In this document: one piece after another, positions 1,067 to 61,345 of the stretch
Numbering within the stretch: the stretch's first letter is position 1
Layout of the letters: each line of letters begins with the position of its first letter
Position numbers and translations under genes: made by a program
The notes under the pieces: generated by a model
Told to the model about the DNA's origin: nothing
Database searches by the model: none
Seen by the model: only the letters and a program-made list of their open reading frames with translations
Assembly (NCBI GenBank): GCA_037074705.1
Contig: CM073593.1
Span: 7,383,001 to 7,447,000, forward strand
Direction of reading: 5' to 3'
Source: Zhengitettix transpicula
Taxonomy: Eukaryota > Arthropoda > Insecta > Orthoptera > Tetrigidae
Length of the DNA: 64,000 nucleotides

Positions 1067-4000
1067 GTTTGTGATATGTTACATGATTTATATTTATTTA
1101 TGTGAATTGGAGGTTCTAAATTTTGGTACTTCTATTTCAATAAATCATGATAGAATTATGTAACAATTTTCAGTTGTTGACTTTGCGAGGTTCTGTACTA
1201 GAAGACGCCATTCCCAATCTTAAACCATCAAGCAGCAATAAAGGGATGAATACAAAAGAAGTGTTAGAGTATGTTGCACCTGAAATCCAGATTTCATGGT
1301 AAGTTAAATAGATATGTGCTTGAACTAATGTATAGTATCAAACCTTAATTCTTCCTGAAAATTGTGTAAAATTGCAATTTATAATTGAATGTAAATAAAT
1401 ATTCCTTATTGAAATCATGTCTGTTGACTTTTAAACATAGCATTATAGATTTTATTTGTTAAACAAGAGCTGAATCTACTTATTAAATGTATTTGTTATA
1501 GCCTTCGATTAGGTGTGATATCTCCTCAAACTGAAGCTCAGCTGCTCAAGTTAGATGAGCAGGGTCTTACAGCACATTATAAGGTAGGAGTGCTGTACTG
1601 TCGAGCTGGACAGGCTTCAGAGGAAGATATGTACAATAATGAAGAAGCAGGACCAGCACTTCTTGAATTTCTCAATTGCATTGGACAACGTGTTAGACTG
1701 AAAGGATTTGACAAATACCGTGCTGGTCTTGATAACAAGAGTAAGCCATTAAATACTTTTTATAACATTGGTGATTTAAACTTAAATTCCAATTCATCCC
1801 TTATTATAAATATCAATATGCAAAAAATAGAATATTTCATTTCATCTCAGCTTTTCAATTTTGGAAATTAAGATAAACAAATTTTTACAGCTTGGGAATT
1901 AATGTATATTCTATTTTTTATTTATGTTAACATTTCGTCTACACTAAAATTAAGGGAAGAGAAAGTGTTATTTTATTGATTATAATTTACAATATAATAA
2001 CACATTTGGGTAGGAAAGAGAGACTGCATTGTCAACTTACCTGAAATCAACAGTTGGTTCTGAGCAGAAGATAATATTCAAAAAAGTTCAAGGTCCTGAT
2101 CCCCTTTCAAGAGGAAAGAAGGTCTGAATATATATATACACACACACACATATATATATATCGCATTGACTTCATCACATTTTCCTTATATATATATTGT
2201 AATAAACAACCGGGGCATCAAAATAATAAATATATATTTTAACAACCAAACAAATTTTATTTATCAATTCTTGAAAAATTATACAATTTAATAAAAAACA
2301 TATATCTCTTTCTCTCATGGGTCTTTACTGGGTTTGATAACAGACAGTACACTTAAATAATCAAAGAACCCAACGTTTATCTTTAAATTAAACAGAAATA
2401 TTTAATCGTCTAGACATTGACGAAACTTATTAACGAACTTAATCTACCAGATTGATTCTAAATTTAAAAGAGTTTATTTTATTAACACAAAAGAAGAGAA
2501 CGATATCTGACTGTATCTTTTAATTCCGTTTACACATATTAATACCATAAAATTTCAACTTACGATTACTCAGGAACATTTGGCTCATTCATTACACACA
2601 CACTTTATAGACGGGACATTTACACGCTGACTCTAACACATATTATTGGTTCGACGATAGCTGATTCTTCATACTCGGTGAAGGACATCCCACTTGCTCG
2701 TGGTGAAACTACTCGACGCTGGATGCTGTGTCCTGGTCTCCTACCATCGAAGACAGTGGTCAAATTTTGAAATTACAACAGATTGAACTTCTGCATACAA
2801 AAATGTTTACCGTTGACATAAATTTGCTATTTCTCTCGCAGGCTGCATTCTTTCTCCATACTGGGTGCTCACAGCTCCCCCTCCGCTCTGACTCCACCTC
2901 CTAGCTCTCACACTCAACTAACTCCCATCAACTGCTCGTTGACAGTTTCTCCATTATCCCGAGATTTACATTCTGTAGGTGCAGTTCCTTAGCAAATAGC
3001 TAGCCCCTCCGTCATGTCACATCCAGACAGGACCTGTAATTACTTTGCACTTGTATCCTCATCCCCACACATGCACGCGCAGTTCTAAATTCTCCAGATC
3101 GCCCAAACTGCACCCTCAATTACTCTGGACTTGTCTTCTCACGTGACCAGCGCTCCCAAGAACTAAGTAAACACATTACAGAATGTCTTATCCACTGTCC
3201 AGGCCATTATCCGAAACAATGCCTGCCTTAACAGATTTATTTTGTGACAGCCCCCCCCCCCCCGCACATGTGCCTTGCCCTGACTCCTCCATTCAGATCC
3301 TTAGTCAACAAGTGAACTTCCCAGGCCATTAATCTGAGACAATGCCTGCCTTAACAGATTTATCTTCGACAGGCCACCCCCCCCCCCCCCCTCCCGGCCG
3401 GTGTGCCTTGCCCTGCCTTACAAATCCTAAGTACACATTGCCACTTCCTGTGACTGCCAAGACCATTAATCCGAAACAATGCCTTTCCCGCAAAGCATTA
3501 CAATATATTTGCAATATTGGTATGGAAAGGACAGAGAGATAGGTTGTGGCTTACCTGAAAGTGAAGTGCAGTGTCACCATAAGGAACTGAAGGTTGTTCT
3601 TCAAATTTTTGGAGGCTCTCGGTCTCCTTTAGGAAGGAGTGTGATGGAATGGTGTAACAGTCATGACGTTATACTTTGGTACAACCTTTTGAAGGCATCA
3701 CATGCTATCATTGATTGTGGACACTAAAATTATGATGGATGATATGCAAGCTACAAATAATGATATTCATCCTGTGTTTTCCTGGTCATTGTTGATCCTA
3801 ATTGAGGGTAATATCCCTGCAGCATCTATGAGTAAAGCTATTTTATACAACACCAACATTCTGCAAGAAGTAGATCCGGTTGCGGAAGGCAGTAAGAAGC
3901 TTCTTTTAGAGAAAGAAGTAGTTGTTCCTGTGTCAATTATTTAGTTTGACGACGGAGTTGGGGACAAATGGGTTGGCAATAGCGGTTAAGAAGCTCGTAT

Positions 4001-7000
4001 CCTTTTTAGGGAATAGCTGAACCTTTATTGGAAAAGCAGCTGAATGTCATTGAGAAACAATGTAATAACAAATGAAAGCTTGAACTAAATCTGGCCCCAG
4101 AACTAAACACAGATCAACGACAAAGGTTACTTGAATTACTTTGTCAATTTTCAGATGGTTTTGAACATGAATCAAAGACTTAGAATAAAACTCTGAATTA
4201 ATACAGGGGACTGCCTACTGATACATCAAAGGGCGTATCGCGTCTCACCGTTAGAGAGACAAATAATTTAGGGAGAAGTAGAGAAAATGTTGAGGAAAAG
4301 AGTAATTCAACCATCCGAAAGTCCTTGGTCATCGCCTGTAGTGTTAGTACGAAATAAAGATGGGAAATGGCGATTCTGCGTTGATTACAGACGTTGGAAT
4401 AAAATTACAAAGAAGGATGTCCACCTTTTACCGCGGATTGACGATACACTGGACAGTCTGAAAGGATCTACGTTTTTATCCACCAAGGATCTGTATTCAG
4501 GATACTGGCTGATTGAAGTAGATGAAGCCGACCATGAGAAAACTTCCTTTATCACGCCGGAAGGGTTATACGAATTCAAGGTTATGCCGTTTGGCCTGTG
4601 CAATGCTCCTGCTACCTTTGACAGAATAATGTGTCTGCTACCTGATATTATCGTATTCTCGGAAATTTCGACGATCATTTACACAGGTTACAGGTTGTTC
4701 TTAACTGTATGCATAAAGCAGTTTAAACACGAAGAAATGTTGGTTTTTTTGTCTCAAGGAAAGGAGTCGCCCTGACCCTAAGCCTAAGAAAGTACAAGCC
4801 GTATCTTATTCCCAGAAGCGTGAATGACGTTAGAAGTTTCCTTGGACTTTATTCGTATTACCGATGATTCATAAAATATTTCTGATGCAAGGCAAAACCT
4901 CTGCAACAGTTGATGCGAGGGAATTCCATTTACACTTGGGAAAATAGAAAAATCTTTCGACGTGCTACGGCATGCTCTTACGATCGATCCTGCACTTGGA
5001 TGGACTCTTTGACGAAACCGCACCTACCGAATTTCACACCGATGATAGTGGATATGGCCTTGGCTCTGTTCTCGTCCAGAAACATAAAGGAAAGGAAAAG
5101 GCCGTAGCTTATTATTAGAGAACTCTGACAAAGACCGAAAGCAATTACTCAACAACAGGAAAAGAATACCTCGCCATCATTTGGGCAATAAACAAATTTC
5201 ATCCTTATCTATATGGAAAGACGTTCACTAATGTCACTGATCACCATTCTCTTTGTTGGTTAGCAGGACTGAAGGACCCTTCTGGACGACTTGAGGCTTC
5301 AGGAGTACGACGCTACCATGGTTTATAAAAGTGGAAGCAAACATAGAGATGCTAACTGTCTCTCGTGGAACCCCATAAATGACAAAAATCTTCGACGTCG
5401 CTGATATACCCACTGCATTAACAAACTTTCTTGAAAAACAAAAGAATGATTCCAAACTGGCGAAAATAATTTTGACACTAAACACCTCAGACGATGTTAA
5501 GGGTGGATTTAAAATTATTAATAAAACTGTTTACAAAAGGAATTATGATCAGTCAGGAAAGAAATGCTTTTAGTTATTCCTAAACATTTGAGATTGTGTG
5601 TCCTGCTTCACTTTCACAACGTGCCAACGGCTGGACACGTAGGCCTCCTGAAGACCTATGATCAAATACGCAAAAGATTCTATTAGCCCGACGTGTTTAG
5701 AACTGTTTCACACTACGTGATGCACAACAGGGAGTGTCAGTGGAGGAAATTGTTCCACAAAAGGCCCCCGGTTGGTTCGTATCATAGGATAGGCATAGAC
5801 CTTCTTGTACATTTTCCCACTTCCACAAAAGGCAATAGATGGATTATTGTATGTACTGACTATTTCAGCTGCTATGCCATAACAAAAGATTTACCAACAG
5901 CCAAAAGTAACAAAATTTATTGTTGACGAAATTGTGTTGAAACATGATGCTCTCAGAGTTATAATTACTGACAGGCATGGTTTTACAATCACAACTGGTG
6001 CACGAGGTGATTCGACTGTGAAATCACACACAGAAGATCGACAGCTTACCATCCACAAACTAATGAGTTGGCAGAATGCCTAAATAAAACCTTAGTGGAT
6101 ATGTTATCCATGTATGTCGATGTGGAACAAAGAGAATGGGACACTATCCTTCCTTTTGTCACATTTGCATACAATACAGCTGCCCAGAATAGAACTGGAT
6201 TCTTGCCATTCTTCCTTTTGCACAGACATGAAGCAGAAACTACTTTGGACACTATCTTTCCATTTAATCCTGATAATGCAGGAGATAATTACATTACACA
6301 GCTTTTAAGTCCAGCAGGAGGAATGTTTCCAGCTTGCCTGACTACTTACCTTGCAAGCACAGGAGAAGAACCGGCTACAGTACAATACAAAACACCGGAT
6401 AGGATCGTATCGGCCTGACGAATTGGTGTGGGTCTTCAGTCCCATTCGCCAAGTCGGCCTTTCTGAAAAACTATTGAAATGTAAACTACAAGGTCAAAGA
6501 TTTTGAACCCCTATTCAGGCAACGGAAATCAAAAGATGTCATACATGTTTTGCGCGTGAAACCATACCATACCATGACTGACACTCAATTGAATGAAGAA
6601 ATCGACATTGATAAACCAGAAAATGAGACTGACCAGAAGAATATAGAACAGACTCTGAAAATGGAAAGACCTCTAGGAACACCGGACCAGAAACAAAATC
6701 ACAGACCAAGAAATGCGCGTGAATACTAAACAGTGGGACACTGTTTCTTCATGGAGGGGACATAATGACACAGTTTCCAATTAAATCCACAGATGGACAT
6801 TCTGTGACATTACGCTGCAAGTGTGATTAAAATAAGAATCGATGGCTGTGACGTTCTTTCTTCCTCATGGGGCTCTTATGTTTGTTTTTGTTTGTTCTTT
6901 GTTAATTCCTGTGAGTGTAAGTTGTATTTTGTGTGAATAAATTTGTTCGTTCTCAAATTTAACTTACTACGTGACAATATATATATATATATATGAACAC

Positions 7001-8182
7001 ATTTGAATTTGAGACATTTGGTCTAGCCAGGATGGGCAGAAGTAATAAATCAAATTTTCAAGGGCCTGAGCCTTCTTCTTCAGGATAGGTCTGAACTATG
7101 TGTCAGCTGCACACAAATTCGTATCTAAACAAGTTAATTAATTTGACATTACATTATCCTGATGTGCTATATTATATTATATATTAATAAAATAATGTTT
7201 CATTTTCCAGCTGACTCAACAGGACTCTATTCTGTGTACTCACAGTATCAGGATTGTGAAATAATGTTTCATGTTTCTACACTTTTGCCCTTTACACCAA
7301 ATAATAGGCAGCAGGTATGATTTTGAACATTTTTCTTATAGTAATGTTGTGTGTAAATTAGATTAGTATATGAAAGTATTTATTATGACTAGGTAATTTT
7401 CTTGTTGAAGTTAAGTAAATAATGTTGAGTTATACTGTTGTTTGATGTTTTAAATTTGAAGTGGAGAATGAGACAATACTTTATAGTTGAATTTTCCCAT
7501 GCATTTGTGTGATAATGTATTGTACTCCTTAATTATATTGTACAATACCTTCATTGGTGGGAGTTTTTTTAATTATATACTAATTTTAAATTAATTATTA
7601 TTATATGGTTCATAGTCATAGAACAAAACAAACAATAGTTTTAACTATATATTTATATTTCATGAACATGTTCATTATAATTTCACATTAAATTATGCCA
7701 GCCTAATATATACTATAATTTACAATACAATAAAAAACAAACAAAATGAAACTCTTAACTCTAACAATATAAAAAACATGAAACTTAACCTCAGGGTCTT
7801 GGGGTCTTCTCATCGAGCAGTATATATTATCGAACAATCTCCTGACCGAGAATTAGCAGCTTTGAGGCAAAGTGGACATAGTTTACAAATTTCACAATAT
7901 TGTACTATTGTCAAGTTTGTGCCACCAGCGATGTCTCTGTGTTTCATTGTGTTTCTGCTTCTGTGTTTCATTGTTGGACCAATTTATTCTGAAAGTCATC
8001 CTTTCCAAACTCTCTATTTTGGCCACCACCAGCGAGCCAGTAACTTTCCAAGGCAAAAACTATTTCACGTTAAACTTTAGGCCCTGCAAGCCAGTCTCTT
8101 TATCCAAGTAATATTTCAAGCCAAACTTCTCTCTCTCACTCAACCATCCTCAACAATCTCCCATCATCTGTCCACTTGGTGG

Positions 8183-8248
<66 letters not shown>

Positions 8249-8858
8249 ACTTGGATAGTGAGGAAGGATAGAAATAAATAGGAGAAATAGGAGGATTGCG
8301 CTTTATTTGAATTCATATGCTCGGGCGAAGAATTACGCACATAGAAAAGCATATGTTCAAAGCAGAGAGAAGGATGGAAGAAGAAGGAAAGACTGAAAAT
8401 ATTTGACCCAGGCGGGACTTGAACCCACGTATTCTGCTTAGTACACAGACGCCTTAACCATCTCGGCCACCGGGTCAAGTTCCCGACCAGGCAAATATAG
8501 ACAGTCTTATTGTGGACAATTAATAGTTTTAGTGGAGGAATGGATAGAGTAGAGGGAATGAAGTCTGTCTATATTTGCCTGGTCGGGAACTTGACCCGGT
8601 GGCCGAGATGGTTAAGGCGTCTGTGTACTAAGCAGAATACGTGGGTTCAAGTCCCGCCTGGGTCAAATATTTTCAGTCTTTCCTTCTTCTTCCATCCTTC
8701 TCTCTGCTTTGAACATATGCTTTTCTATGTGCGTAATTCTTCGCCCGAGCATATGAATTCAAATAAAGCGCAATCCTCCTATTTCTCCTATTTATTTCTA
8801 TCCTTCCTCACTATCCAAGTTTGAATGTGAATTAATTCCTTAAATGGATTCTCCTAAT

Positions 8859-8904
<46 letters not shown>

Positions 8905-9223
8905 TATGGAAAGGATAGAGAGATAGGTTGTGGCTTACCTGAAAGTGAAGTACGGTGTCGCCATGAGGAACTGAAGGTTGTTCTTCAAATTTTCGGAGGC
9001 TCTCAGCCTCCTTCTTCAGGAAGGAGTGTTACACCATTCCGTGCACCGGCCGGCTGCGGACTGCGGACTCCTTCCTGAAGAAGGAGGCTGAGAGCCTCCG
9101 AAAATTTGAAGAACAACCTTCAGTTCCTCATGGCGACACCGTACTTCACTTTCAGGTAAGCCACAACCTATCTCTCTATCCTTTCCATACCAATATTTTT
9201 GACAATGTCACATTCTCACTATT

Positions 9224-9265
<42 letters not shown>

Positions 9266-10628
9266 TGCGGTGTCACCATAAGGAACTGAAGGTTGTTCTT
9301 CAAATTTTTGGAGGCTCTCAGCCTCCTTCTTCAGGAAGGAGTGTTACACCATTCCGTACACCGGCCGGCTGCGGACTGTGGAGTTTTGACCATCACATGG
9401 CTAGTAGCCCATAAACAATTAACAGCCCACCAGGCCACTAACTTTCTCTCTCAAGGGAAGGTCACAGCATAGGAAAGGTTCTGATAGTGATCATTCAGCA
9501 GCAGCAGCAGCGGTGACATCTAACCGGAGGTCCAGCCTCCTCTTCTAGTTGTCGGATTTCCTTCCTCGTGGAATCTGCTCCGTGATGACGAGATATATTA
9601 TGCCTATAACATACTAATATTCTGTCATTACTAAAATGTCATTTTTTGGTTAAAACATTCATACATAACAATAGTAAATGCCTTAACGGCTATCTAACTG
9701 TTCGATTCACACTGTCATTCATACACTCATTCATTCACTCTTATACCGCTGCTGCTGTTGTAAGTTCTTCGCCTTCCGCTACGTTTCTCGGCTGACTCTC
9801 TCCGTTCTTTCTAATTTTTTGGAGGGGAAAGGGGGGATGAAAAATAAATAAGAGTAAATAAATATAAAAATAAATAAATATTAACATATATGTATGAATA
9901 TATGTGTGTGTATATATATATATATATATATACAAACTTGGATAGTGAGGAAGGATAGAAATAAATAGGAGAAATAGGAGGATTGCGCTTTATTTGAATT
10001 CATATGCTCGGGTGAAGAATTACGCACATAGAAAAGCATATGTTCAAAGCAGAGGAATTCTCCTAATATTGTATTTATTCCTTAATGGAAGCTCCTAATA
10101 CTTCATTCCCTCTACTCTATCCATTCCTCCACTAAAACTATTAATTGTCCACAATAAGACTGTCTATATTTGCCTGGTCAGGAACTTGACCCGGTGGCTG
10201 AGATGGTTAAGGCGTCTGTGTACTAAGCAGAATACGTGGGTTCAAGTCCCGCCTGGGTCAAATATTTTCAGTCTTTCCTTCTTCTTCCATCCTTCCCTCT
10301 GCTTTGAACATATGCTTTTCTATGTGCGTAATTCTTCACCCGAGCATATGAATTCAAATAAAGCGCAATCCTCCTATTTCTCCTATTTATTTCTATCCTT
10401 CCTCACTATCCAAGTTTGATTGTGAATTAGTTCCTTAATGGATTCTCCTAATATTGTATATATATATATATATTGGTATGGAAAGGATAGAGAGATAGGT
10501 TGTGGCTTACCTGAAAGTGAAGTGCGGTGTCGTCATGGCGACACCGCACTTCACTTTCAGGTAAGCCACAACCTATCTCTCTATCCTTTTTATACCAATA
10601 TTTTTGACAATGTCACATTCTCACTATT

Positions 10629-10686
<58 letters not shown>

Positions 10687-13600
10687 ATTCAAAAGAATCC
10701 GAGAATGATTAATATATCACATTAACGTACAAGCTGTAAAGGGGCTCGTAGGTTGCCTAATAACTTAATATTTTAAAATGACAGGGCGATACTTACAGGA
10801 AGATCATTCATGTAAAGCACCCTATATATACATATATGCTTAAACATACATATACATATAAACATGCACAGACATACACACACACATGTATGCATACACA
10901 TACATACATGAGCATGCTCATACATACTCTCATGGAGTTACCTCTGATGAATCGGAGATTAGGGCTTTAAGGATGGTGCGTGTGAAGCATTGGTCGAAAT
11001 TGTTTATATTGTGGCTTTGGGCGTGAGCAGCTACAGGGAATTGAATTTTAGAAAGTTTGACAGTGCTGCGGTGGTTGACTATTTGTTCAGGGAGTGGTCT
11101 TTTGGTTTGGCCTAAATACAATTCAGGACAGAGTCTACAGTTAATTTGGTAGATTGTGTGGGAGGAGAGGCAGGTGATGTTTTTTTTTGATTTTGTATGT
11201 TTTTATGTGATTCTGAAAGGTTGTGGTTGGCTGTAACCTACCACAAGGTTTGCAACCTGGCATGGGTGTGGGTTTGCACAGGTAGACAAGTAAATTTCTG
11301 AAGGCAACCCTTGGGCAGGTGGGGAGGATGGTTTTTAGCTCAGGGTTGGATTGCAGCCCAGTGTATGCTAAGCGGAGAATGGAGTTGATTTTTTGTAGTC
11401 CAGGGAAATATGTTGTAGTGAGGGGAGGACTCCTTTTTTTGGTTTTGGTCCAGAGTGGATGTGGGTATTTGGAGGTTTGATAGGGTATGGGTTGTCTGTT
11501 TTTGGAGGAGATCGCTTGGATAGTTTCTATTGACGAAGGCATTGAGGATCTGGTTGGTGTAAGAGGCCAGACTATTCCAGTTGGAGCAAATGCGTGCACC
11601 CCTGAGGGCTAGACTGTATGGGAGGGAGCATTTTGTGTGGTGTGGAATGGCAACTTGTGAATTGCAGATATTGGAATGTGTTTGTGGGTTTTACATGGAC
11701 AGATAATTTGATCTTTCCAGAACTCAGGTGTATGTCAACGTCTAGGAAAGTGACTATGGTTTGGGAGTGGTTCCAAGTGAACGTTACGGGGTGTTTGGAG
11801 TTCAGGGTGTATGTCTGTGCATGTTTATATGTATATGTATGTTAAGCATATATGTATATATAGGGTGATTTATATGAATGATCACTATCAGAACCTTTCC
11901 TATGCTGCGACCATCCCTTGAGAGAGAAAGTTAGTGGCCTAGTGGGGTTTTAATTATTTATGGGCTACTAGCCATGTGGCGGTCAAAACTCTGCAGTCTG
12001 CAGCCAGCCGAAGCACAGAATGGTGTAACACTCCTTTCTGAAGAAGGAGGCTGAAAGCCTCCAAAAATGTGAAGAACAACCTTCAGTTTCTTATGGCGAC
12101 ACTGCACTTCACTTTCAGGTAAGCCACAACATATCTCTCTTTCCTTTCCATACCAATATTACAATTATATTGTATAAACCTGTTCATGGTTAGAAAAGTC
12201 TTCCCATCACAATGATAAGACAACCTGGTTATTGTAAAATGGAAAAAGAATCTTTTATCAGTGGCAGGTTTTCATGTGCATGTGAAGGTTTTATGAACAT
12301 CTGATAGGTGCAAATATGTGAGCCAAACTGTCAGTCCATCATTACATTTGCTTTAAGTCAATTCTTGCAGATTATCTGAATGCAGTTATGGGTTCTATAA
12401 CAAAATTCTGATCATAATATGAAATAGAAAATAACCTACCCATTGAAGTTTGCTTATTGAATCATATATCTGTTGTCAGACAGAATTCCATGTAATGTAA
12501 CTAATTCATACAAACAGGCTGCAATCCAACTGTTTTATGCATATTTGATTATGAGACATTTGTTGACTATAATTATTATTTGATAAAATGTAAATGAGGC
12601 ATTTATTTCATTCTACATACCATTCATCTGTTTATTAAAATAATTCATTTTACAGTTGTTGCGAAAACGGCATATAGGGAACGATATTGTAACTATAGTC
12701 TTCCAGGAGCCAGGTGCCCAGCCTTTTACACCAAAGAATATTCGTTCACAGTTTCAACATGTGTTTATTGTTGTTAGAGCAGTAAATCCATGCTCAGATA
12801 ACACTCAATACAGGTGAGAATCTTCTGATTTCTGTATATGTGTGAGAGTTCAAAATATATCTTAATTAAGTATCACTGTTCAGTTTTAGTTCAGCATTTG
12901 TATTATTTTCATATTTATTTGCATTGTACATTATTATTCTACTTTTTGTACTCAAAATAAATTTGAACGTTATTATAGTGACTGATTTTTATACATTTTT
13001 GTATACAGAGTTGCTGTGAGCAGATCAAAGGAAGTACCTGTTTTTGGTCCACCTATTCAGGAAGGTGCAACATTTCCTAAATCTAAAGCATTTGCAGACT
13101 TTTTGCTAGCCAAAGGTATGCTTAATTTATTTTAATCAAAATTATAATAGAAATTAGTTGCTGCACTTATCTGGCTCTTCATTATATTCCAGTTATTAAT
13201 GCTGAGAATGCAGCTCACCGATCAGAAAAGTTTGCAACAATGGCAACTCGTACAAGACAGGAATATTTAAAAGATTTGGCTACAAATTACACAACAACAA
13301 CAGTTGTAGAAAGTGGTCAGAAATTTTGTAAGTAACATTGTTGTTGGGTTTATTTATTATTATTTTTTAAGAACATATATATGCACCATTATTCTCTTTT
13401 TGGGTTATTCAACCTAAATGAGTAATTAGTAACTAATCTCACTTATAAATTAAGTAAGGTCTTATTATCAAAATATTTGTGCTGTTATGGTAGGTTTTGT
13501 TCTGAAATAAAACAGTTCCTTAATGCTTAATAGTTGCCAAGAAGAACTGCTGACATACCTTCATGTTTGACATGATTTTTGAAAATCATTAAACTTTGTA

Positions 13601-15051
13601 AATTTTTCCCATAATTAGTCTCTTTCATAAAAAGATTTATTTAATCAAACAGAGAGAGTTTTGTCATGTGTATACATATTTGGCGCTCACATACCAAAGT
13701 GATGGAAATAATTTTAAGTCCATTGTTTCAGCTGATCAGTAACAAATTGGGATACTTGCCTTATATAAAATTCAGCATGGGATTAATTGGGGAATGTGGT
13801 GAAACTTTAAATAATTTCCATCTGTAGCAATAGTTGAAGTTATTTGAGTATAGTGGCATGAGACATTATTTAGAATAGTTGTGTTTAATTTTAAAGTATT
13901 GTAGTGGTTAACAGTGCAATTGGAAAGAGTTTTAACAGATGAATTTGAAATAGAATTTTTTCTAAAAGTATAACAGTTTTTCACAAACCTTAAAAAGAGC
14001 TATTATAATGCTTCATTTTTCCTTAACAGCAATGCTGTCATTTAGTAGCAAGAAAAAAGAAAGGATACGCCCACGATTTTTGCCAGATTCTTCACAAAGA
14101 GGAGCCATATCCTGGCAGGTATTATTGGATGACAGTGGGACATCTGCACTTGTACCATGTTTTTTGGCCATTTCAACTGATACTCTTGTATTGATAGAAG
14201 AGAGGTCAAGGGAAATTGTTTTTGTGACACCATGTAAGGCTGTACTTGGTTGGCAAGCACAAAGTAATAGGTCAGTTTTTTCTAATTTATATATAAAATA
14301 TATTTTTCAACTGTCATTTATAATTTATCAATAAATAAACTGCCTTGTTTGAAAATGGTTTATTAACAAAAAATTAAATATACTGTCATTTTGTCCTTGT
14401 TTAATATTATTACTAAACCTTAAGATGTTGTGAAACTCAAGACCATTTATTTATAACATATTTTTTTAGTAACTCCAGCACTTTACAATTTTTATAAGTT
14501 TGAATAATTGTAATGTAGGAATCAGTTATTGAGACTGTTGCATTCATTAAGACAACTGAATTCTGACAGTATAATTCATTTTTAATCGTAATATAGAACA
14601 CTAGCGACAGATACTATATCATACATTAAATGGAATACATGTAATTTAAATAACTTTTCAATATATACCATGTTACAATTTAAAGATTCCTCCTTTTTAA
14701 TTTATATTGTTTCTGCAATTATCTTGGGAAGTTCATTAAATATTAATTTGTGAGTAATTACAAAAATTGCTAATCTTTATTTATATAGTTTATTTTTTAT
14801 TGTATTATTGATTTGCTATAGACTATATATATAATATTAGTAAGTATATGACATTGTCAAAATAATTGTGATATTAGTATAGAAAGGAAAGAGATATAGC
14901 TTGTGGCTTACCTGAAAGTGAAGTACGGTGTAGCCATAGGGAACCGAAGGTAATTCTTCAAATTATTGGAGCCTCTCAACCTCCTTCTTCCTTCCTTCCT
15001 TCCTGAAGCCACAAGCTATCTTTATTTCCTTCCCATACCACACACACGCAC

Positions 15052-15108
<57 letters not shown>

Positions 15109-15334
15109 TACACAGAATACGTGGGTTCAAGTCCCGCCTGGGTCAAATATTTTCAGTCTTTCCTTCTTCTTCCATCCTTCTCTCTGCTTTGAACATATGC
15201 TTTTCTATGTGCGTAATTCTTCGCCCGAGCATATAAATTCAAATAAAGCGCAATCCTCCTATTTCTCCTATTTATTTCTATCCTTCCTCACTATCCAAGT
15301 TTGAATGTGAATTAATTCCTTAAATGGATCCTCC

Positions 15335-15376
<42 letters not shown>

Positions 15377-16733
15377 AATAATCAACAATTAGGGTTAATT
15401 AAATTTTGCCCCACATAGTGGTAGCCATTTATGTAATGATAGGCTTTATTTAAATGAAAAAGATAATCAATTTTTTTTAACAAAATTATTTATTAATTTG
15501 TGGCTTCTAAAATTTACAAACAATTACAATAAAATGAAAATCTCTTAATCTCTCAGGGTCTTTACTGGGTTTGATGATTTACAGTGAAAATTATTGCATG
15601 ATCTTATTAACAAAACAGTTTAAAATTTACTGCAAAATAATGTGCTGATAAATGAAAGAAAAGCTACAAGAAAAGCGAACGAAATCTGACTTTACTCTTT
15701 TAGTTAGCGTTTACAGATTTTATTAAAATTTTGGTTACTTACGCATTGTTCGGCTGGTACCAGCATTCTTTTAGCACTTTAAAAGTACACTATATTGCAC
15801 AATTTTTACTCAGATTCTAAATTTTTCTCACAGATTCTACACTTATGAAGTTGAAACGTGATTACTAGGCTCCCAGGAATTCAGATGATCCTCCTAATTG
15901 GTCGGCTATCGGATGTAATTTTCCTTCAGCACGAAAATGTTCAAGTTCTTTATAATGAAGCAAACCCTTGCTTCCGTTGGCTAATTGTTAGCCCATCTAC
16001 TCGGTCCAACTAACTGCTTGCTTACAGGAATCTTATGAGTTGCTGATTTTTAGCCTTTTACCGCTTTATTTATCAGTTTGGATTGAAAACTTCTAAGTAG
16101 CTCGGTGAAGATTTACTTTTACAATGCCTCTCCTTTCGTGGCTGACCGTAGACTTCGACTTTTCTCTTTCGCTCCTCTCTGTAGACTTTGACTATTTTTT
16201 ACAATGTCTCTCGCCTTGTGGTTGACTGAAGACTGCCCATACTTTTGCGCGCGTAATCGCCATTCCGAACACTCAATAATAGGAACAGAGCTGGTCACTC
16301 ATTGTCGCTTTGCTCGCTCTCACTATAATGCAAATTGTTCGCTAACAATTCAAATTATTTAAAAACAATTCATGGCTTAATTAATTGGCATTACAATATA
16401 TATATATACGCATTATTGGTATGGAAAGGAAAGAGAGATAGATTGTGGCTTACCTGAAAGTGAAGTGCGGTGTTGCCATAAGGAACTTAAGGTTGTTCTT
16501 CAAATTTTCGGAGGCTCTCAGCCTCCTTCTTCAGGAAGGAGTGTTTCACCACATACCGTGCACCGGCTGGCTGCGGACTGCGGAGTTTTGACCACCACAC
16601 GGCTAGTAACCCATAAACAATTAACCATTAATTGAGAGCCTCCGAATATTTGAAGAACAACCTTAAGTTCCTTATGGCAACACCGCACTTCACTTTCAGG
16701 TAAGCCACAATCTATCTCTCTTTCCTTTCCATA

Positions 16734-16786
<53 letters not shown>

Positions 16787-19700
16787 TAAAAACAAATTTA
16801 CATTTAGAAGGTGTAATCAAATATTTTTATTATACAATCGTTCATAAATCGAATAAATAAATATCCAAAGTATGAACCAAATTTAATGTGCTCATTTTGG
16901 GATTATTTCAATCTGGAGGTTCTAGAAGAAACTCTAAAATTAATTTTGGAGCAATGTACAGATTCCATAAATGGGACTTTTAATGTTGTAGCAATGTTTT
17001 TATAATTACGGTTTGTAAATGGTCTGACAAATTCATTCTATAAGATATGATTCTATAAAATTTATTTTATACAGTTTCATATCTGTAGATAAATTTATTT
17101 GTGAAGATTGACCAAACATTAATATGGGTTTCACCAATGCTACATATAAAATTTTAATAGTCATTAGAGTGGAATAATTCACACTTCTAAAAGATCAAAT
17201 TTGCATAGCTGTATTAATTGATGCACTATGTGCTTCAAATGTCCTTTTTTAAAAAATTGAATATTATTTTTTAATGGTATTAACTCTTTTCAATACAGAA
17301 CAGTCAATATTGTACAGAAAAATATTTATATATGTGTGTTTGTAACACTTGTGTAAAATGTGACAAGGTCAAATTAAATAACACATTTGGATAGGAAAGA
17401 GAGACAGCGTATTCAGATTACCTGGAAGCAAATGTTAGTCCAATCAGACTGTGCAGAAATAAAAATCAAATTTTTGAGGACCTGAGCCCCCTTCCTCAGA
17501 ATAGCAGATCCGAACTGTGAGTTGGCCAACACACAGTTCAGACCTTTTTTCCTGACAAAAGCAGCTCAGATCCTCAAAAATTTGAAATATTTTTTCTACG
17601 CATATTAATAACATTTATATATAAAGGGGATGGGGTTAATTAAATTTCTTGTTATTAGTATAACTCAATCAGTAATGCGGAAATTTCTTTTTATTAGTCT
17701 AAGGTTGTATCATCATCAAGGAGAGTGCATCACTCTTCAGATGCGTGGGGAAGGAGATGAGTTACCTGAAGTTCTTCTTCGTCTTCGTGCTGTAACTTCA
17801 GGTACTGATGCACAAGAGATGACACTGCGCCGCAATTTAGTTGGCCAGTTGGGATTTCATTTACAACCAGATGGTGTTGTAACTCAGGTTGAAGGACTGG
17901 GTCAAGCTTGGCAAGCTGGATTACGCCAAGGGGCAAGACTTGTAGAGGTAGTAATTAGTTTTCAAGCATTAGAACAAACAATAAAATGAATTTTAAATGT
18001 ATTTGTGTTTTTTGTACTACCAAAATTATAATAATTTATTTAATACATTTCTTATAGATATGCAAAATAGCTGTATCTACTCTCTCCCATGACCAGATGG
18101 TTGATCTCTTAAAAACATCAATGATGGTAATTGTTACTGTCATCCCTCCTATGGCAGATGGAACACCTAGAAGGTAAGGGTTCAATAAATTGGCTCAGTA
18201 ACTCTTGATAATTAAGATTTCTGTAGTATATAAATTATGTATTAACAATTTTCAATATTAGTAAATTTAGGTTCTCCTTCTTAAGAAAAGATCACAGTAA
18301 TGGAAAAAATAACAGAAAAATACATACATTTAGAGTGGTAGATGAAAGTAAAGAATAAAAGGTTTTTAACTTCCTTTTCTTTTCTTTACTTTTTACCTAC
18401 CCCACTAAATGTGTATGTATTTATTTTTCTGTTATTTTTCAATTATTGTGACCTTTCCTATAAGTAAAAACTAAAAGTATTCAATTGGTGTTGCTAAATT
18501 TCTTACTATGAACCTAGTTTTGTTGTCTGTATTTAAAAACTGCTGAAAAATGAAAATATATTGAATGTTGCAGAGGGTGCACATTGCAAAATTGTCGCTT
18601 CACTTTAGATGGTTGTGAAGGTGATTATGAAAATGTGACAAGTCCTGCAGATAACAAAGCTGATTATGCCGTTCCTGGAAATCATAGACGTATGTATGAA
18701 TGGAACTTCGCACCACTTTGGTCTAGTAGCAGTTCAGGTTACGGTACAGGAAGTAGTAGCAAATCATTTACTGGAGGAGGAAATACAAACACCGATGTCT
18801 CACGATTCCCTTCAAATCCTGAGGTAATGTTAAATGTAGAATTTATTCCAGACTTCTTAGTTATGATCTATAAAGTGAACAATTTATACTGTTGTACCTG
18901 ACATTGAAAATTAATATTATATAATGGCCAAGAAGTTAGTCAGGAATTAATTATAAACAAATATTACTTGTTCATTATTATTTTAACAAAAATTTCTAAT
19001 ACTTAACGTTTCTTCCATAAACCCTTAACCTCATCGGGTGTTTACTACAAAATCATTTATTCTTTGTGTAAGTAATTTTTGTTTATAGTTAATTCCAAAC
19101 TGACTTCTTGGCTATTATAACTTTAATGTTTATATCTGTAACTTACTTACTTTGGCATGTTGAAAAATAACAAACTTCCTATCTCTTGTTTAAAAGTTTT
19201 TCCTATGGACTTAATTTTTTTTTTATCACATCAAAGTATATATATTAAAAATGAAAATTCTGTTAAAAATTTGTATCAGTTAATATAATATAATTAGTGT
19301 AAAATGGCCAAAAGTTAGAATTTATTAAAATTAAAATTTACAGTTAACTACAAAACATTTCTTCCCTTTGCTTAGGTACCACTTCACTTGTATCTGAGTT
19401 ATTAATAAATAGAAGTAGTGAAAAAGACGTGAATAAGTTGAGTCCCAAATAAATAAATTTAGTATAACATGGTTACTTACATAATTAAAGAAACAATTAA
19501 AATGTTATGTGAATTTATATAAACAAAATACAGAAAAAAATTTGACTTCCTCCATCAACTTCCAGAGCCAAAATGAGAGAAATCAATGTCATTCAAAAAC
19601 TGTAACTGATTTTTTAACATAAGAAGTAAACCTTCAAAATTACAAGAATATATCAGTTTAAATCATATCAACACTGAATCATACATGCAATTTAAATTTT

Positions 19701-50749: not shown

Positions 50750-51985
50750 ATGCTCTTGCGTAACCTTAATGTTTGTACAAACACTACAGTACTGGCTGAT
50801 CTGAGTAGTGATCACAATCCAGTATTTACAACAATATCCGTTCAGGAAAATTATCTTGCACCCACACGCACACCCATCCGTCAAATTGTTGACTGGGAAC
50901 GCTACAAGCTAGATGTGCACTATTGGCTGAACAATCCCCCACCACTAAATTCTGAGCAGGACATAGAGCTGGGAATCAGTCTCATAAGCGACGCAATCAC
51001 TGCTTCACTCCGTCACGCCACGGTTAGGGAAACGATTCCTGGCAGAAACAACGAAATACCGGACGATATCAGAGCCCTAATTAGGGAGAAAAACCATTAC
51101 AGAAAGAGATGGCAGAAATGGCGAGATCACGAGGATAGACGAACCTGGGAGAGACTATCTGCGGAGATCCGCCAAAGGTTGATTACCTTTAGGGAAGACA
51201 GCTGGGATAGAGTACTCGGAGATATAGACTCTGTACCAGATTCTGATAGAATCTGGGCTCTCAGCAAGTCTTTCCGCTGCCCTCGAGGCGCAATACAGCC
51301 AATACACGGTCCCAATGGGATAGTGTACGACGCTGAAGACAAGGCTTATGCAATGGCAGACACCCTTGAGCGCCAGTTTCAGCCAATAGATGACGACGAC
51401 ACAGATGACCTGGAGGAGTTCTACGAACATGTAGAACAACACGTCCAGTCATTAATGGCACGTGCTCCCAACACCGAAGCGCCTCTTTGTTCTGAACAAG
51501 AGGTGGCGAGTAAGGTCAAGTGTACGAAGTCAAAAAAGGCACCGGGCCATGATAGGATATCCCCAAAATCACTTAAATGCCTCCCCCCTTCAGGGATCTC
51601 CTACACCACCAACATATTCAATAGTTGCCTGAAGCTAAATTATTTCCCCACGTCCTGGAAAACAGCGAAAGTCATTGTATTCAAAAAACCCGGAAAAAAA
51701 CCACTTTTCCCCCAAAATTATCGTCCCATTTCGCTTCTCTCGACTCTGTCGAAAACTTTCGAGAAGATAATTTTATCGCGCCTCAATGACTTTCTTGAGC
51801 AAAACTCTGTTCTTATACCAGAACAGTTTGGCTTCAGGCATGGTCACATCACAATCCATCAAGCAGTTAGGTTGGCACATCATGCCTACGAAGGATTACA
51901 TAATAGAACACACATTACAGGCGCTGTACTCCTCGACCAAACACAGGCGTTCGATAGGTTATGGCATGATGGATTGACCAGTTAG
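50750..51985 (+). pseudogene. Jockey-type LINE ORF2, first open part
   Basis: 411 codons open. Up to residue 30: end of the AP endonuclease. Middle: linker with WERYKLDVHYWL and WDRVLGDIDS. From about residue 255: RT with KKAPGHDRISPKSLK, NYRPISLLSTLSKTFEKIIL and EQFGFRHGH, then TQAFDRLWHDGL, the region of the first catalytic Asp. The frame then breaks. Confidence 0.88.
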
Positions 51986-52042: not shown

Positions 52043-52829
52043 ATGTCTACTGGGACGGACAGGCCAGTCCTACTAGGAACATACAGAGTGGGGTCTCTTG
52101 GCCCTACTCTGTTCAATATCTACATTAATGACGTTCCAAACAGTCCGGAAACCGAGTTAGCGTTGTATGCGAATGATGCAGCCTATTTCGCCTCTGGGCA
52201 TAACCAAAATTATGTAGCAAAAAAGCTCCAGCGGTCAGTAAAGAGCTTTCAATCCTGGGGCGAACCGCTGGAGAATGCGAATCAATGGGGAAAAGACCCA
52301 GGCCATAATGTTTACGCGAAAAAGAAACTTCCCCATTGTTGATATAACGGCAGGGGGAACCAAAGTCCAACGGACAAAGTCTGTAAAGTACTTAGGACTA
52401 AGGCTGGACAAGCGACTGACCTTTGGTGAGCAAATCAAACAGACCAAAGCGAAATGCCACTTAGCAATAAGAAGCTTGTACCCGTTGTTTAAAAGCCGCG
52501 GTCTTAGCCTAAAAACTAAGCTCATGCTTTACAAGACTATAGTACGTCCTGTACTTATGTACGGTAGCGAGGTCTGGGGTGTGGCAGCCAAATCTCACAT
52601 TGATCAGGCTCAGGCAGTGCAAAATAAGTGTGTAAAAATAATCACCGGTGCACCTAGATATAGTAGAATGTTTGATATTCATAATACATTAGGCTTAGAT
52701 ATGATTAGGAATTATTTAACATTTAAGAGTAGAACTTTTTACGAAAGGGCAAAATATTCTAAATTTGACAGCATAAATATAATTTCGACTAGAGATAGCA
52801 ACCTTAGAGATAGATGCACTAGGTTTTAG
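52043..52829 (+). pseudogene. Jockey-type LINE ORF2, remaining parts
   Basis: 52043-52342 has GSLGPTLFNIYINDVPN and LALYANDAAYFASGHN. The catalytic YADD has become YAND. After another shift, 52275-52829 carries the thumb and post-RT region (YLGLRLDKRLTFGEQI, PVLMYGSEVWGVAAKSHID, IQ-like QAVQNKCVKIITGAPR). Non-functional because of shifts and the lost Asp. Confidence 0.88.
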
Positions 52830-61261: not shown

Positions 61262-61345
61262 AGGTTGGAAAGAGACAGATTGTGGTTTACCTGACCGTAA
61301 AAAGTGTGTCCATGATCTGGAGAAGCTTAGAGACATTTAAAAGTA
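61262..61345 (+). repeat. Worn PLE-associated terminal repeat
   Basis: GGTTGGAAAGAGACAGATTG and TGGTTTACCTGACCGTAAAA fit the start of the family; the rest is lost. Confidence 0.45.

Follow-up and report, generated by a model that had tools for sequence, protein, structure and literature searches.

The locus is built around a long palindrome within a window of 64,000 nt, the window being the whole stretch of DNA that was analyzed. The palindrome is a perfect inverted repeat, with two arms of 130 nt each (8898 to 9027 and 9067 to 9196) that are 100% complementary and are separated by a spacer of 39 nt. Its arms are head-to-head pieces of a repeat that we consider a candidate pseudo-LTR (pLTR) of a Penelope-like element (PLE), and the whole lies between two simple AT repeats:

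8863–8901, unstranded: (TA)n tract, left flank of the palindrome
8898–9067, minus strand: left arm, 3′ part of the candidate pLTR, 170 nt, with its outer end (8898) directly on the (TA)n tract
8983–9023, minus strand: hammerhead-like motif of the left arm, identical in sequence to that of the right arm
9067–9197, plus strand: right arm, 3′ part of the candidate pLTR, about 130 nt, head to head with the left arm
9071–9111, plus strand: hammerhead-like motif of the right arm, with stem I, CTGAAGA, an extra A (9082), stem II, GAAA, AATT and a predicted cut at 9107/9108
9198–9228, plus strand: tail of about 30 nt, on this side only; the same tail is found at 10603–10633 (plus strand) and a diverged one next to 14871 (minus strand)
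9227–9264, unstranded: (AT)n tract, right flank of the palindrome

The motif at 9071 to 9111 on the plus strand reads, element by element, CTTC, CTGAAGA, A, GGAGGC, TGAGA, GCCTCC, GAAA, ATTT and GAAG, and the sequence from 9023 to 8983 on the minus strand is identical to it. A sequence-only reading of this DNA had described two intact hammerhead ribozyme cores, one per strand, in a palindrome. The motif is indeed present on both strands, in the inverted arms, and the CTGAAGA, 6-bp stem II and GAAA named in that reading were the same in both, as were the remaining parts that it listed, namely the 4-bp stem I (CTTC/GAAG), the self-complementary AATT and the U-U-U triplet before 9108. The core, however, is not intact. 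All of the conserved core letters (C3 U4 G5 A6 N7 G8 A9 and G12 A13 A14, with N7 being A) can be found at 9071 to 9111, but one base is inserted after A9, so that A9 (9081) is followed by an extra A (9082) before stem II begins at 9083. The motif is thus hammerhead-like with an unusual core. The 41-mer was predicted to fold with stems I and II at −14.1 kcal/mol, with stem II drawn in the predicted fold as 7 bp closed by a 3-nt loop. Helix III is unclosed in the monomer, and the AATT is a two-base remnant of it that could pair in trans.

We then asked how often such a motif would be expected by chance. A descriptor made up of the core, stem II and GAAA without an insertion matched nowhere on either strand of the whole 64-kb window. 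The descriptor that allowed one inserted base gave three matches (9075 on the plus strand and 9019 and 16534 on the minus strand), all within the same repeat family, and being relatives of one another they were counted as one occurrence. The same descriptor gave no matches in 40 simulated 64-kb windows. The chance estimate was based on one strand of 1,050 Mb of first-order Markov sequence, with significance expressed per window. With a 4-bp stem I required, the 1,050 Mb yielded no matches if stem II had to reach 6 bp or more, and one match if 4 bp sufficed. Dropping the stem I requirement while keeping the 4-bp minimum for stem II gave 164 matches, equivalent to 0.015 to 0.026 expected per window. 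A chance origin of the motif is unlikely, and pure chance as its source was considered and rejected.

The sequence-only reading had also proposed a search with covariance models, and this did not bear it out. No Rfam 15 hammerhead was found in the whole window at gathering scores, or at an E value of ≤10 in 8850 to 9420 and 16380 to 16760 (the copy of the repeat at 11807 to 12160 lay outside this relaxed search), although these models may not detect PLE motifs that lack helix III. The relaxed search did return matches to microRNA precursors; these were below gathering scores, and we read them as a reflection of the long hairpin. Stems I and II showed no compensatory change over five distinct rows, which contain too little variation. 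A 22-nt conserved piece of the repeat had no matches in viral contigs and none in prokaryotic contigs.

The repeat is present many times in this part of the window. When the repeat was compared with the window by BLAST, 11 pieces of at least 35 nt (E ≤ 1e-5) were identified between 3.5 and 16.8 kb, a count that includes the query's own two arms and leaves out weak short matches at 7050 to 7085 and 61271 to 61294. The pieces other than the two arms are as follows:

3514–3642, minus strand: single piece; motif broken (core deletion, G12 to A)
9264–9497, minus strand: further copy, without its last 51 nt; G12 to A
10470–10537, minus strand: left arm of a short head-to-head pair, at a locus that duplicates 8561–9264
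10530–10602, plus strand: right arm of the 10470 pair, followed by the tail
11807–12160, plus strand: longest copy, 354 nt, inverted relative to the adjoining ORF remnant; A in place of G12 and U in place of a stem I C
14871–14990, minus strand: left arm of a decayed head-to-head pair, with a diverged tail on this side; motif incomplete
15006–15040, plus strand: right arm of the 14871 pair, 35 nt
16414–16624, minus strand: left arm of a further head-to-head pair; complete motif, retaining both the extra A and G12
16633–16740, plus strand: right arm of the 16414 pair, starting inside loop II; GAAT replaces GAAA

The full motif was kept in 3 of the 11 pieces, these being both palindrome arms and 16414 to 16624. 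Seven copies could be aligned over the core (one row begins part-way through the core, and 16633 to 16740 was left out), and CTGAAGA followed by the extra A was common to five of them. Eight pieces reach G12 (the seven plus 16633 to 16740), with G in four and A in four; because C11.1-G12 is a CpG, we infer that this G-to-A change is expected decay. The spread of the core variant over the copies, together with the losses of G12, therefore suggests that the unusual core is old within the repeat family and that several copies have decayed since.

Two further features of the copies were seen. At 3640 to 3660, the single copy at 3514 continues into TGGAATGGTGTAACA, which is the following segment of the candidate pLTR in reverse complement, and this junction is a short internal fold-back without an outer end. 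The sense strand at 9150 to 9165 and in the copies has CAG/GTAAGC, a strong-looking 5′ splice site, which is present in the nine aligned copies that span the site with a full tail end. Introns are known in some PLEs.

An ORF remnant about 1.7 kb from the palindrome provides a link between the repeat and a mobile element:

~10930–11778, minus strand: frameshifted, 5′-truncated ORF remnant, Penelope-like (end of the reverse transcriptase [RT] part, linker, GIY-YIG-like part)
10802–10879, minus strand: start of a second candidate pLTR 3′ of the ORF (fragment only), with 75 of 78 aligned positions matching 11807–11883 (plus strand)

We read the remnant as the end of a Penelope RT part with a linker and a GIY-YIG-like part. 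In a protein database, P0001 was the sole match among 319 candidates (E = 1.3e-4), with 23 of 48 amino acids identical in the last ORF piece, and P0001 itself gave a GIY-YIG match that was below threshold (E = 0.0015). Pfam returned nothing for the window's pieces of this ORF or their join, and NCBIfam returned nothing for two of the pieces and, for P0001, one unrelated match far below the cutoff. Among solved structures there was nothing for P0001, and the match to the joined ORF fragment, an antibody chain with an E value of 2, was taken as chance. Because the RT core is absent from the remnant, the PLE family identity leans on likeness to known Penelope proteins and on anatomy.

The anatomy matches that published for Penelope. 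The longest copy (11807 to 12160) is found at the ORF remnant's truncated head, facing the other way, and its upstream part (11807 to 11883, plus strand) is the sequence that recurs 3′ of the ORF. The repeat is therefore present on both sides of the ORF, the second copy being partial, and the order of inverted pLTR, 5′-truncated ORF and partial pLTR is the published Penelope arrangement. In principle, the 78-bp link could instead be the inverted end of another element. On these sequence relationships, the repeat is very probably the pLTR of a PLE, and this reading is well supported by evidence that is independent of the hammerhead motif. The Penelope assignment made from the sequence alone has thus held up, on the strength of the ORF remnant beside the longer repeat copy, the head-to-head pairs, the one-sided tail and the AT-run flanks.

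There are four head-to-head pairs in the window (8898/9067, 10470/10530, 16414/16633 and 14871/15006). The stretches 8561 to 9264 and 10156 to 10670 match each other in order and look like duplicates, and therefore at most three of the pairs are independent. Arm identity was 100% for 8898/9067, 96% for 16414/16633 and 95% for 10470/10530. The tail of about 30 nt was on exactly one side in three of the four pairs and on neither side in the fourth. An AT run of at least 10 nt was found within 50 nt of 9 of the 11 outer ends, compared with 1.6% of random window positions, although some outer ends share one AT tract and the nine are not independent; the remaining two outer ends had AT runs of 5 and 6. 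At most ends a target-site duplication would be unreadable because of the simple AT repeats there.

A second repeat unit (8185 to 8901, 9930 to 10473 and 15113 to 15373) contains a tRNA-like stretch, with Rfam tRNA matches at 8404 to 8476 (minus strand), 8593 to 8665 (plus strand) and 10188 to 10260 (plus strand). It also forms head-to-head palindromes with outer ends that meet (AT)n tracts, and was perhaps moved by the same machinery as the pLTR pieces.

Similar arrangements have been described in other PLEs. In Penelope families of Adineta vaga, pLTRs are inverted and head to head, one of them may bear a 31-bp tail, the inverted junctions form palindromes, and the targets are rich in AT (PMC3846280). 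The window resembles these families in its head-to-head pLTRs, one-sided tail of about 30 nt, palindromes and AT-rich flanks, but its pLTRs are largely short pieces and it has a single, broken ORF end. The A. vaga paper makes no mention of hammerheads (PMC3846280). Elsewhere, PLEs are reported to carry minimal hammerheads, usually without helix III (PMC6155905, PMC7761336), in agreement with the sequence-only reading, which had named this as a PLE feature. Those hammerheads occur in tandem and possibly act as dimers (PMC7761336, PMC6466107).

A close comparison is with PAc, a Poseidon-type PLE of Anolis carolinensis, for which one study describes an ORF that starts at stem II of the hammerhead, a cut 26 bp downstream of the start codon, a start of reverse transcription 111 to 118 bp into the ORF, and cutting of AT-rich DNA (PMC11167929). 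Cleavage by the PAc hammerhead was seen only with protein, hammerhead mutants left insertion in vitro unaffected, and none of the reads terminated at the presumed site of cleavage (PMC11167929). Counted from A9, the cut predicted in the window falls after +27, and the repeat has its outer end at +116/+117, values close to the approximately 26 nt and 111 to 118 nt of PAc. In both elements, stems I and II lie close to where the ORF begins, a putative position in the window, and the target is AT-rich. Unlike PAc, the repeat has AAG where PAc has ATG and carries the extra core A, and its cut is a prediction, whereas PAc needed protein.

The inserted base itself has a precedent. The CChMVd(+) hammerhead also has an extra A between A9 and G10.1; this A10 causes a moderate loss of trans-cleavage rate, and replacing it with U raises the rate (PMC3705267). 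CChMVd(+) is, however, a viroid RNA and an element unrelated to the repeat. The newt and ASBVd hammerheads, which are described as having a weak or missing helix III and as cleaving better as dimers (PMC6155905), resemble the window motif in lacking a closed helix III but differ in that their copies are in tandem in one RNA, whereas the window copies are on opposite strands. The window adds a PLE repeat family with an extra nucleotide in the hammerhead core, and hence a natural test of how much deviation PLE hammerheads tolerate.

To judge what the motif could do at this locus, we folded transcripts of the palindrome. A transcript of either strand would contain one motif and its full 130-nt complement, with no second sense copy of the motif, and was predicted to fold at −270.8 kcal/mol, compared with a mean of −85.2 kcal/mol for 200 shuffled sequences. 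This supports the earlier suggestion that the motif and its complement could mask each other. Any transcript through the palindrome would fold on itself, and by these predictions the hammerhead is therefore very probably inert here; we see only a very slight chance of activity from the palindrome in the cell. The same reading had noted that the AATT can pair between two molecules and that PLE ribozymes are thought to act as dimers. Within one transcript a dimer is impossible here, since the motifs lie on opposite strands; PLE dimers have been described for tandem motifs (PMC7761336, PMC6466107). Pairing between molecules was also energetically unfavorable, with a predicted −20.8 kcal/mol for the hammerhead dimer of the 41-mer versus −28.2 kcal/mol for two monomers and −34.5 kcal/mol for an alternative duplex; these nearest-neighbor energies, which omit the tertiary core, speak against a stable dimer without excluding one.

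When the second arm was left out, formation of stem I depended on the context, with a predicted probability of 0.98 in 9067 to 9120, 0.31 in 9055 to 9135, 0.23 in 9040 to 9150 and approximately 0 in 9067 to 9196. A competing hairpin, CTCCTTC-CTGAA-GAAGGAG, had a probability of 0.57 in 9055 to 9135, 0.003 in 9067 to 9120 and 0.12 in two longer contexts. We judge activity of an isolated tandem sense RNA to be possible but less likely than not.

We think it likely that the palindrome consists of head-to-head 3′ pLTR pieces of a PLE, inserted between (AT)n tracts, and that the pLTR owes its hammerhead to descent from PLE hammerheads. Under this explanation, the hammerhead of the pLTR would be of the minimal type I, in which stems I and II form and helix III stays unclosed; it would have the extra A between A9 and G10.1 and lie close to the point where the ORF begins. 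By analogy with known PLEs, an active tandem element would make a sense RNA with repeated sense copies, which might be cleaved at the ORF start either as dimers or with the help of the element's protein. Insertion would involve reverse transcription from a fixed internal site (AATATT, or about 30 nt further on, which would yield the tail) toward the pLTR 5′ end, and two such products joined at their heads would give a palindrome whose outer ends are fixed while its inner junctions vary. The presence of a hammerhead on each strand of the palindrome need not imply a designed pair, as it follows from inverted pLTR insertion.

An explanation that keeps the PLE pLTR but regards the core as a chance likeness, with stem II an ordinary hairpin and CTGAAGA a product of the overlapping CTCCTTC-CTGAA-GAAGGAG hairpin, is unlikely, though it has several observations on its side. 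The models in Rfam did not match, the core has an extra base and its stems no covariation, G12 is lost in half of the eight pieces that reach it, and the overlapping hairpin competes in some contexts, if hardly at all in the shortest. A comparable motif was nevertheless met only once in 1,050 Mb of simulated sequence, and the motif lies where one would be expected, in a PLE pLTR, with spacings close to those of the Anolis PLE.

The other alternatives concern the repeat itself. Palindromes with fixed outer ends beside TA-rich sequence, and a PLE remnant that has a 78-bp sequence in inverted copies at its two ends, are what might be seen if the repeat were a DNA transposon of the foldback or MITE-like type, one that has long inverted repeats and targets TA, and the neighboring PLE remnant a coincidence. 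We rejected this as improbable, given the single-armed copies (3514, 9264 and 11807 to 12160), the unequal arms, the one-sided tail and the extension of the repeat upstream into sequence that also follows the PLE-like ORF. Metazoan retrozymes, small non-autonomous non-LTR elements, would account for a repeat a few hundred bases long with a hammerhead-like motif, but they are described as being tandemly repeated and as bearing canonical type I motifs (PMC7229834). The window has no tandem copies of the repeat and no uninterrupted core, and a PLE-like ORF is linked to the repeat, so that a retrozyme was rejected as having almost no likelihood.

For palindromes arising from PLE insertion, the way in which the heads are joined can be considered further. 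The outer ends lie at would-be reverse transcription start sites beside AT-rich DNA, whereas inner junctions and arm lengths vary between pairs. The authors of the A. vaga study read junction palindromes as self-priming (PMC3846280); self-priming of this kind would need an antisense template. The Anolis PLE enzyme is reported to extend each of the two target strands, starting at the same sites in the RNA (PMC11167929), and by analogy this suggests that the target is primed on two sides and that the heads are then joined. A tailed end opposite a tail-less end points to separate starts. The near-identical arms speak against this, as they are explained no less well by snap-back or by a single source RNA. 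Sister insertions, with their fixed outer ends and variable inner junctions, could separate two-sided target priming from self-priming.

A bolder proposal, which we regard as rather unlikely, combines this mechanism with a role for the inserted base. Base 10 might persist because A9-N10-G10.1 is, or was, the start codon of the ORF (ATG in an ancestor, AAG here), shared by the ribozyme core, with cleavage 26 to 27 nt later inside the ORF, and the palindromes would come from reverse transcription primed on both cut target strands, with the heads joined, and not from snap-back self-priming. The frame from A9-A10-G10.1 was the only one of three that was open through the tail (49 codons), but 6.2% of the 147-nt frames in the window are open, so that its openness lends slight support to an ORF at this place. 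The triplet itself reads AAG, not ATG. An in-frame stop was found within the pLTR in one of five copies and just upstream of the core in three of five, with no in-frame ATG between the stop and the core.

Finally, the window contains remains of other genes and elements, and the Rap-GAP exon among them, together with the arthropod-like look of the retroelements, points to an animal genome. A reverse transcriptase fragment at 4272 to 4775 (PF00078, E = 8e-17) looked Gypsy-like by eye. A LINE reverse transcriptase ORF, jockey-like by eye, is in two pieces (50750 to 51985 and 52275 to 52829), the first of which matched PF00078 (E = 2.3e-13). Possible exons of a SIPA1L-like Rap-GAP gene lie on the plus strand at 1449 to 1871 (PF02145, E = 7.7e-9) and 17612 to 17989 (by eye only). 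If these exons are real, the repeats would be intronic.
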